38,992 nucleotides of DNA from Thermostichus vulcanus str. 'Rupite' (GTDB lineage: Bacteria > Cyanobacteriota > Cyanobacteriia > Thermostichales > Thermostichaceae): positions 1 to 38,992 of the forward strand of contig NZ_JAFIRA010000039.1 in the NCBI RefSeq assembly GCF_022848905.1, written 5' to 3'. Made by a program: the position numbers and the translations under genes. Below the pieces are notes generated by a model. The model was not told the DNA's origin, searched no databases, and saw only the letters and a list, made by a program, of their open reading frames with translations. Each line of letters begins with the position of its first letter. Positions within the stretch are counted from its first letter, which is position 1. This document shows, one piece after another, positions 3,320-12,221 of the stretch.

Positions 3320-3501
3320 GTCTAGCACTTTGTATCCTGACGCCGCACGCCTACAGCGGGGCAAGCCCTAGCTACGTATACAGCGCAGGAACGTTCTCGA
3401 GCTCTTAGGGGTTAAACTACCTTTTGGAAGCCTTCAGAGAATGGGCAGGATATGCTGGTCTGAAGCAGAGAGGGCAGGGATCCCATCTCTCTGCTTCGGT
3501 G

Positions 3502-4374
3502 ATGAATGTTCTGCTACCGTTAGCTCCCATGCCGACCCCACCACCCACCTACTATCAACAGCTGGGGCTTGACCCTCAGGCCAGCCTAGAGGAGATCAAA
3601 ACTGCCTATCGAAAACGTGCCCGTCAGGTTCATCCTGATGGGTTGCCTGCGGAAACGCCGGAGTATCTGCGCCAGTTGGCCCAACGGGAGTTTCTGCAGT
3701 TGCAGCGCGCCTACCGGGTCTTAAGTGATAGCCAGCAACGGCAGGCTTACGATCTTAGCCTCAAACCGAAATCCTTACCCCCCCGTCCACCTGTGGCGGT
3801 GGTACCTGTCCCGGAGCCGATTCCTCCTACCCCCAGTTGGCCGACTTTGTTGAGTGCTGGATTGGCAGGGGCAGCCCTGTGTTTAGTGGGTTTGGCCCTC
3901 TGGAACAGCTTAAGCCCGGCCCAAAGCCTAGAAATGGCCAACAAAACGACTGTGGAAGACGCGGTTCATTTGAGTGCGGCAACGGGTCCAGTCGGGATCC
4001 CTGTTTCTGAAGGGGTAGTTCCCCGTTCCTCTGCCGTGGCAGGAGAACTGGTGCAGGAAGTCACCGTCTCACAAGCCATGACGACAACTCAGCCAGAGAC
4101 TCCTTTTCAGCCCTCTGCGGAGCAGATCGACCGTTTTGCCCGGGCGTTGGTGGAGGTGCAGCCCCTGTTACAAGCTACCCAAAATCGTCTTGAACGGGCC
4201 AACAGCAGTGAAGAACGTCAGCAAATCGAACAACAGTTTGAAAACGCCGCCAGCAAGGTGATCGTCGCCAACCAACTGACCCCCGAAGAGTATCACCGCA
4301 TCTCCGCCAGTGCCCAATCGGATCCGCAAGTAGCGGCCTCGGTAACAGCAGCCGTGCGTCGTTGGATGCCCTGA
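3502..4374 (+). CDS. J-domain / single-TM / DUF4168 membrane protein
   Basis: About 290 residues with three parts. Residues ~17-75 are a DnaJ domain: YYQQLGLDP, EEIKTAYRKRARQVHPD with the HPD triad at 44-46, and FLQLQRAYRVLSD. A Pro-rich linker leads to one membrane helix at ~116-134 (LLSAGLAGAALCLVGLALW). The C-terminal ~207-284 (EQIDRFARALVEVQPLL, IEQQFENAASKVIVANQLTPEEYHRI) matches the pattern of DUF4168, a domain usually found in exported cyanobacterial proteins. The expected topology is J-domain in the cytoplasm and DUF4168 in the periplasm or lumen. The J-domain would recruit an Hsp70 (DnaK) to the membrane. The start is uncertain: ATG 3502 and ATG 3529 are both possible, and a TTG at 3424 would add a poorly conserved leader. 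The 3' end overlaps the opposing chorismate-lyase gene by 82 bp. Confidence 0.8.
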   Translation: MNVLLPLAPMPTPPPTYYQQLGLDPQASLEEIKTAYRKRARQVHPDGLPAETPEYLRQLAQREFLQLQRAYRVLSDSQQRQAYDLSLKPKSLPPRPPVAVVPVPEPIPPTPSWPTLLSAGLAGAALCLVGLALWNSLSPAQSLEMANKTTVEDAVHLSAATGPVGIPVSEGVVPRSSAVAGELVQEVTVSQAMTTTQPETPFQPSAEQIDRFARALVEVQPLLQATQNRLERANSSEERQQIEQQFENAASKVIVANQLTPEEYHRISASAQSDPQVAASVTAAVRRWMP

Positions 4375-10762: not shown

Positions 10763-11449
10763 TTGCCCTTGAAGGTCTCTCGTCCCCACCTGGTTGCCAT
10801 CTTTGCCCAGAGCCTGGATGGAAAAATCGCCGCCGATCGGCGGCAGCGCCCCTCCTTTGGTAGCCGCGAGGATTATCAGCACCTAGAAACCCAAGCCGCC
10901 CAACAACAGGCCTTGATCATGGGAGCAGCCACCTTGCGGGCTTATGGCACCAGCCTGCGCATCCGGGATCCAGAACTCTTGCGCCAACGAGCTGCACAGG
11001 GCCTCCCCCCCCAACCCCTGACGATCATCTGCTCCGCCAGTGGGCAGATTCCCCCTGATCTGCCTTTTTTCCGACAGCCCCTGACCCGCTGGCTGTGGAC
11101 AACGCCTGCGGGAGCGCAAGCCTGGCCTCCGGGATCTGGCTTTGAGGAGGTCTGGGTGGCTGCGGATTGGGATTTGCTGGCTCGACTGCTCCGCCTCAAA
11201 AGCCTGGGCCTAGAGCGGGTGGGGGTGCTGGGAGGGGGGCGACTGCTGGGGGCTTTTTTGCAGGCCCAGGCGCTGGATGAGTTGTGGATGACTTTGGCCC
11301 CGATACTCCTGAGTGGATATCCTGACCCGCCCGCCAGTATCGAAGGTTGGCAACTGCAGGGATCCCCGCCCCGGTTACGGCTACTGGAGTGCCATCCGGG
11401 ATCCGTAGAGCTGTTTTTGCGCTACCGGCTGGACTGGCCGGATCCCTAA
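10763..11449 (+). CDS. RibD C-terminal-domain reductase family protein
   Basis: A 228-residue protein of the RibD-C / dihydrofolate-reductase-like fold. RPHLVAIFAQSLDGKIAA near the N-terminus is the family's opening motif. It is followed by QALIMGAATLRAYGTSLRI, a nucleotide-binding GVLGGGRLLGAFLQAQALDELWMTLAPILLSG, and a terminal HPGSVELFLRYRL. In riboflavin synthesis this domain reduces the ribosyl side chain with NADPH, but the deaminase half of RibD is absent, so this is a stand-alone reductase of uncertain substrate. The only usable start I can find is TTG at 10763; the frame is open back to 10715 without ATG or GTG. Several GGATCC sites fall in the gene. Confidence 0.78.
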   Translation: MPLKVSRPHLVAIFAQSLDGKIAADRRQRPSFGSREDYQHLETQAAQQQALIMGAATLRAYGTSLRIRDPELLRQRAAQGLPPQPLTIICSASGQIPPDLPFFRQPLTRWLWTTPAGAQAWPPGSGFEEVWVAADWDLLARLLRLKSLGLERVGVLGGGRLLGAFLQAQALDELWMTLAPILLSGYPDPPASIEGWQLQGSPPRLRLLECHPGSVELFLRYRLDWPDP

Positions 11450-11480: not shown

Positions 11481-11577
11481 CTATCCACAGGTTTTCCCCA
11501 GGTTTTCCACAGCTTTTGGGGTAGTTTTCCACAAGCAGATTGCCTCCATTGCAGCCATCGAAGCTTTTTGTGGAAAA
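11481..11577. other. Phased cluster of DnaA-box-like sites, candidate replication origin or DnaA-regulated site
   Basis: Five sites resemble DnaA boxes: CTATCCACA (11481-11489), TTTTCCCCA (11492-11500), TTTTCCACA (11503-11511), TTTTCCACA (11525-11533) and, on the other strand, TGTGGAAAA (11569-11577). TTTTCCACA is, as I recall, the box preferred at the Synechococcus origin. The first four begin at 11481, 11492, 11503 and 11525, an exact 11-bp register with one step skipped (TTTTGGGGT at 11514). An AT-richer stretch follows at ~11580-11700, a suitable unwinding element. There is no dnaA or dnaN in the window, so this could equally be a DnaA-titration or regulatory site. Confidence 0.55.
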
Positions 11578-12020
11578 ACGAGGATAAAAAGGTTCGAGCG
11601 AATACACTCAAGAAAAGGTAACAGAATAAGGTTGTTTTTGCCGATGCTATCAAAGATGAAGCCAAGATTTCTGTAACATTATCTTCTCGGATCAGGATTG
11701 ACATCCCCTATGGGGCAGAGGGCAGAATAGCCCCACCTGCGGATGAAGGATGGGGCGGTTTCCCCCAACCGCATCCCCAGAGTCAGCCAGTTTTGGGTAT
11801 GGGACTCCGTCCCGTTCAGGCAAACGGTCGTTTTTGCTCTTGTACCCCTTCCACTGGGTTATTAGCAGCCCGGTGTTTCTTCGCTTTTCTCCAGCCGCTT
11901 AGGCGTTTTGGGTTTTTCGTTGCCGATCTGTCTCGAGCTGTCTTCTGTCGAGCAGTTCCGGCTTTGCCTGTGGCAACCAACCCATCTGTTCCCCCCTTCG
12001 ACCCGGAGTGAGTATTTCTT
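11578..12020. other. Intergenic region without a recognised gene
   Basis: About 440 bp between the DnaA-box cluster and the DUF2811 gene. The first ~120 bp are AT-rich (AAGAAAAGGTAACAGAATAA-like sequence). The rest is GC-richer, with a dyad of GGGGCAGAG/TAGCCCC type near 11712-11734. Open frames here have no family resemblance and atypical composition (Cys- and Phe-rich), so I do not call a gene. The promoter of DUF2811 should lie at its right edge. Confidence 0.5.
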
Positions 12021-12221
12021 ATGAGTTCTCCCAGTGTCAGTATTTTGAGCGAAATTCCGGAGGAGCTGCACGATACCCTCAAGGGTTATCTCTCTCGCCA
12101 TCCCGACTGGGATCAGGATCGGGTGGTGACGGCGGCACTCTCGCTGTTCCTGCTTCAAAGCGGGGATACCGACCGACGGGCAGCACGTATTTACCTGGAC
12201 AGCCTGTTTCGTCGTAGCTGA
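12021..12221 (+). CDS. DUF2811 family protein
   Basis: A 66-residue protein, MSSPSVSILSEIPEELHDTL, then HPDWDQDRVVTAALSLFLLQSG and RRAARIYLDSLF. This is the full length and the conserved pattern of DUF2811, a small cyanobacterial family with no established function. The EIPEELHDTLKGYLSRHPDWDQDRVVTAAL arrangement is reminiscent of small helical DNA-binding or antitoxin-like folds, but no toxin partner adjoins it. It lies ~80 bp upstream of the TPR-glycosyltransferase gene in the same direction. Confidence 0.85.
   Translation: MSSPSVSILSEIPEELHDTLKGYLSRHPDWDQDRVVTAALSLFLLQSGDTDRRAARIYLDSLFRRS

Follow-up and report, generated by a model that had tools for sequence, protein, structure and literature searches.

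The window, by which we mean the whole stretch of 38,992 nucleotides analysed here, is contig C39 of the source genome, a 3.72 Mb assembly in 120 contigs. It contains an array of five DnaA boxes between a gene for a RibD_C-like reductase and a short gene of the DUF2811 family, with a promoter-like element on the DUF2811 side:

10763 to 11449, plus strand: RibD_C-like reductase gene, ending 32 bp ahead of the array, which it adjoins in the window's family only
11481 to 11489, plus strand: DnaA box A, CTATCCACA, with two mismatches to TTTTCCACA and one to TTATCCACA
11492 to 11500, plus strand: DnaA box B, TTTTCCCCA, with one mismatch to TTTTCCACA
11503 to 11511, plus strand: DnaA box C, TTTTCCACA, perfect
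11525 to 11533, plus strand: DnaA box D, TTTTCCACA, perfect, the last direct box
11569 to 11577, minus strand: DnaA box E, TTTTCCACA reversed, perfect, 44 bp from D
11698 to 11703, plus strand: TTGACA, predicted -35 element for transcription of DUF2811; box D starts 173 bp earlier
11723 to 11728, plus strand: CAGAAT, candidate -10 element proposed from the sequence, after a spacer of 19
12021 to 12221, plus strand: DUF2811 gene (66 aa, PF10929; profile match E 2.9e-28), the conserved partner of the array

Reading the sequence directly confirmed the arrangement originally described, with four direct boxes in 11-bp steps, one step skipped, and a fifth box reversed. The start-to-start steps of the direct boxes are 11, 11 and 22 bp, followed by 44 bp from D to E, and the skipped position, at 11514, reads TTTTGGGGT. 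Three of the five boxes (C, D and the reversed E) match TTTTCCACA perfectly. The AT-richer stretch said to lie beside the boxes is visible after 11578, although the enrichment is mild. When the whole window was shuffled 30 times with dinucleotides preserved, 110 bp held at most three boxes and usually one or two, compared with five in the array. Individual one-mismatch boxes show no enrichment across the window (14 observed and 10.5 expected), and it is therefore the clustering that is exceptional. Neither an Rfam search nor a comparison with a plasmid collection gave a match to this DNA. Elsewhere in the window, positions 3424-4374 encode a protein that fuses a DnaJ domain to DUF4168.

The array and DUF2811 across cyanobacteria

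Within the window's family, represented by five congeners and two other genera, the geometry of the array is kept: box B, then C at +11, D at +22 and the reversed E at +44/45. Two of the congeners are assembled as single contigs, of 2,932,766 and 3,046,682 bp. The box B variant TTTTCCCCA is common to all five congeners and genus G001, genus G002 shows small variations of the geometry, and in G005 the array and DUF2811 lie on separate contigs. Among the relatives' arrays compared, only those of G006 and G007 retain box A, in the form xTATCCACA.

The association of the array with DUF2811 extends across the phylum. In 99 of 102 DUF2811 loci, from about 30 cyanobacterial families, a phased box array or a convergent pair spaced by 44/45 bp lies upstream of the gene and in the same orientation, the conserved position and orientation expected of boxes that control a gene; in shuffled controls for the same loci a phased or convergent pair occurred in a mean of 0.2 and a maximum of two. 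Not counted here are duplicates, genomes that lack dnaA, one locus at a contig edge, and three loci judged to be second paralogs or weak, which have a box pair (L168), weak boxes only (L169) and no boxes (L170). Degraded arrays were found at three loci from genomes that have dnaA (L202, L208 and L212). Some of the loci (L071-L100) came from an exact-pattern search and were thus selected for having boxes, but nearly all loci fetched by DUF2811 alone, free of that selection, have arrays too. The pattern TTWTCCACA-N33-38-TGTGGAWAA, with a gap of mostly 35/36, occurs in 43 of 386 genomes of the phylum, compared with two for the reversed control pattern, and DUF2811 adjoins the convergent pair in 29 of 30 fetched loci. 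The convergent 44/45-bp spacing recurs in marine picocyanobacteria and others. Spacings between boxes on the same strand peak at 11, 21-22, 32-33, 43-44, 54 and 65 bp, multiples of ~10.8 bp. The premise of the original prediction, that helically phased head-to-tail boxes are a substrate for DnaA oligomers, holds up well, and their geometry is under strong selection throughout the phylum.

Other neighbours change while the array stays with DUF2811. The RibD-like gene adjoins the array at 11 of 90 loci, all in the window's family, and we rejected the idea that the array serves this upstream gene because it is a neighbour in one family only. Genomes of f20, which resemble marine picocyanobacteria (L076-L100), have at least two DUF2811 paralogs each, and the copy that carries the array is a divergent one with HPNWDQYR instead of HPDWDQDR.

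The TTGACA/G element resembles a promoter with constant spacing from the array. TTGACA at 11698 is invariant in an alignment of seven genomes of the family, and across the phylum TTGACA or TTGACG lies most commonly 181-184 bp past the final direct box, with 172-173 bp in the window's genus. When the units are aligned, most families show a degenerate reversed box, an ATGTAAC-AAAAA block, TTGACA and then CAnAAT 17-19 bp further on; the -10 equivalent outside the window's family is mostly CACAAT. In some marine picocyanobacteria an extra reversed box, TTCTCCACA, lies just past TTGACG, over the expected -10 region. Two features count against promoter control: the candidate -10 element and its 19-nt spacer match the consensus poorly, and the distance of about 450 bp from the array to the downstream DUF2811 start in the window is long for a simple bacterial promoter. 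Between the promoter-like element and the gene there are anywhere from 66 to 447 bp, depending on the locus. Many families have direct repeats similar to HLR1, the site bound by RpaB, at a constant position between the array and the promoter-like element, ~90 bp beyond the final direct box. Their best scores in these families are mostly 13-14 of 16, compared with 11-13 in mononucleotide shuffles; we make no claim of an RpaB site in the window, where the score is weak (11/16).

Neither Pfam nor a fold search assigned a function to DUF2811. A monomer model of low confidence (pLDDT 73) has three helices. A ribbon-helix-helix fold, suggested by the sequence pattern, was not adopted, as a PDB sequence search and Foldseek/VIA-align gave no significant match and the monomer model is of low confidence.

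Loss of DUF2811 together with dnaA

Among 186 photosynthetic genomes, DUF2811 is present in all 167 that have dnaA (one match, in G112, is weak). In the 19 that lack dnaA, it is absent from 13, a pseudogene with internal stops in two (G312 and G154) and intact in four, an association with a Fisher p of 8e-19 when relatedness is ignored. The losses of both genes are spread over at least seven lineages (f13, f7-g16, f7-g17, f7-g74, f23, f11-g50 and f6-g47), as counted by family and genus labels and with absences called from assemblies of high stated completeness. Sister genomes in g16, g50 and g47 retain both genes. General gene decay was rejected as the cause by a control family, DUF3143, which is present in 18 of the 19 dnaA-less genomes, without stops in 16 and with stops in two; in the f6-g47 genomes both DUF2811 and DUF3143 have decayed. 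Among the four genomes with an intact DUF2811 and no dnaA, boxes are missing altogether from G061 and G379, and G274 and G189 retain a single perfect box beside degraded ones; relatives with dnaA have three. In other classes of the phylum dnaA is mostly present and DUF2811 absent. Because DUF2811 was repeatedly lost with dnaA, it probably connects DnaA with some unstudied partner, and a product useful mainly where DnaA exists fits a regulator or effector of DnaA.

Our preferred reading, to which we assign a probability of about 0.7, is that the array is a DnaA-responsive control region of DUF2811 and that the gene acts in the DnaA pathway. DnaA would form a head-to-tail assembly along the direct boxes, which are helically phased, with the reversed box closing it, and the bound protein would act on the promoter TTGACA-N19-CAnAAT ~130-190 bp downstream. 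Production of the DUF2811 protein would then follow how much DnaA is present or which nucleotide it carries, and the protein would probably belong to the DnaA pathway itself, in the simplest case feeding back on DnaA or replication. The analysis shows the array, its conserved orientation and tie to DUF2811, its preferred spacing to a promoter-like element, and the repeated co-loss with dnaA; that DnaA binds here, that it regulates transcription and in which direction, and what the protein does are inferred.

The strongest competitor, which we consider unlikely, is that the DNA itself is functional, titrating, inactivating or reactivating DnaA as a datA- or DARS-like element, and adjoins DUF2811 by chance. 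Elements of that class are also marked by IHF or Fis sites and by ATP hydrolysis or ADP release from the DnaA they bind. Escherichia coli datA, DARS1 and DARS2 (PMC10380432 and PMC5010248) have a similar organization, with groups of boxes outside the origin that have constrained spacing and mixed orientation. The convergent pair D-E, a geometry more rigid than the distance from array to gene, and the erosion of boxes upon loss of dnaA would all suit such an element. However, it leaves unexplained why a protein gene is lost along with dnaA, and unlike the E. coli sites the array has a promoter-like element locked to it and a co-evolving protein gene. The relative positions of datA and DARS are conserved in E. 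coli (PMC5010248), whereas the array keeps no conserved position relative to oriC: its distance to dnaN, a gene that is not always at oriC, ranges from 0.05 to >1 Mb (~0.25 of 2.93 Mb in G003, 1.05 of 3.05 Mb in G004 and 0.05 of 4.18 Mb in G373) and is roughly constant within one family only, f20.

The array and the chromosomal origin

The original prediction took the array for a candidate chromosomal origin, and correctly stated that dnaN and dnaA are absent from its surroundings: dnaN is on contig C76 and dnaA on C64. Perfect TTTTCCACA boxes number 53 in the whole genome, and form tight groups only at the window array and on C76, which are also the only two places in 3.7 Mb with phased box pairs. 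The C76 cluster has eight perfect boxes between 2540 and 3702, the majority of which fall between dnaN and rnz, as well as near matches. No comparable box cluster was found within the 2.9 kb examined around dnaA on C64. The dnaN region is the usual location of oriC in cyanobacteria, as in Synechococcus elongatus, where it has 11 boxes (PMC3480399), and Cyanothece 51142 (PMC4674748). The window array resembles these origins in its TTTTCCACA boxes, pairs 2 nt apart and use of both orientations, and it is, as expected of an oriC, a DnaA-box cluster lying partly head to tail. In contrast to them it has no adjoining dnaN or dnaA, and the richest cluster of this chromosome, linked to dnaN, is elsewhere. 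Therefore, with a richer cluster at dnaN on C76 and an array tied throughout the phylum to DUF2811, the origin claim is not supported. Sampled GC skew in the complete congener G003 is irregular, as described for most cyanobacteria (PMC7198777), and the source assembly, in 120 contigs, is too fragmented to place an origin by skew.

That the array could be a second or former origin is very improbable. It shares the unit TTTTCCACAGG with the C76 cluster, 42-44 bp of it resemble that cluster at 89% identity by BLAST, and several firing sites are reported in some cyanobacteria (PMC7198777); against this, the conserved neighbour of the array is DUF2811 and a promoter-like element lies downstream, in addition to the distribution of boxes, dnaN and dnaA just described. 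Least credible is that another protein with a TTTTCCACA-like site binds the array and DnaA is uninvolved, since, although the boxes are identified as DnaA boxes by sequence resemblance, they share their 9-mer and 11-bp unit with this genome's own oriC cluster, they fade upon loss of dnaA, and DUF2811 disappears with it.

Clusters of DnaA boxes also occur elsewhere in the phylum. In one genus (L225 in G253, and also G185 and G096) an origin-like cluster of several boxes is located far from dnaN, and oriC in this genus is therefore probably away from dnaN. The possibility that the published Thermosynechococcus oriC prediction is the DUF2811 locus found no support, as the genus that resembles it, a putative match, has its multi-box cluster elsewhere. 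A third type of cluster, with three perfect boxes at 20-21 bp spacing, was seen in four families (L221 2546-2596, L222 2428-2478, L223 2492-2541 and L224 2528-2577); in L223 and L224 it follows a GMP synthase (guaA-like) gene, ~100-450 bp from the 3' end of that gene.

DnaA-box clusters and gene control

Caulobacter has a DnaA regulon, with gene-regulating clusters of DnaA boxes outside oriC. In Bacillus subtilis, too, box clusters outside oriC regulate genes (Ishikawa et al. 2007, as cited in PMC7198777). The window array resembles the clusters of both species in having intergenic boxes upstream of a gene and away from oriC. It differs from them in that a single fixed helical phase recurs phylum-wide before one small gene, DUF2811, that is lost with dnaA. 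Gene-regulating clusters of DnaA boxes are thus known, and we did not find this phylum-wide instance in the open-access literature searched. There we found no mention of DUF2811, on which a paper may exist elsewhere, and no study of a DnaA regulon by ChIP-seq in S. elongatus; several papers that pair TTTTCCACA with cyanobacteria concern oriC.

Control of DUF2811 by DnaA through the array, as we propose, can be set beside what is known of cyanobacterial DnaA. Purified domain IV of the Cyanothece 51142 protein binds two boxes 2 nt apart, and does not clearly bind a single box (PMC4674748). Strains of PCC 6803, PCC 7120 and PCC 7002 with dnaA deleted grow normally under optimal conditions (PMC7198777), and any effect of the array and DUF2811 is therefore not essential there. 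More tentatively, at somewhat less than even odds, DUF2811 could be an unrecognised, cyanobacteria-wide DnaA regulator that is itself DnaA-controlled via the array, and this circuit could be the reason that dnaA is retained in lineages like f7, because the array persists in f7 (probable Nostocaceae) and DnaA is reported to be dispensable for replication in PCC 7120.

Clusters of DnaA boxes in cyanobacteria are not necessarily markers of origins. Ohbayashi et al. 2020 (PMC7198777) describe the function of DnaA as unclear in those cyanobacteria whose replication is independent of DnaA-oriC, and the findings offer one place and one gene at which to look for its role: an array present in ~30 families, and a small protein that vanishes with dnaA in at least seven lineages.
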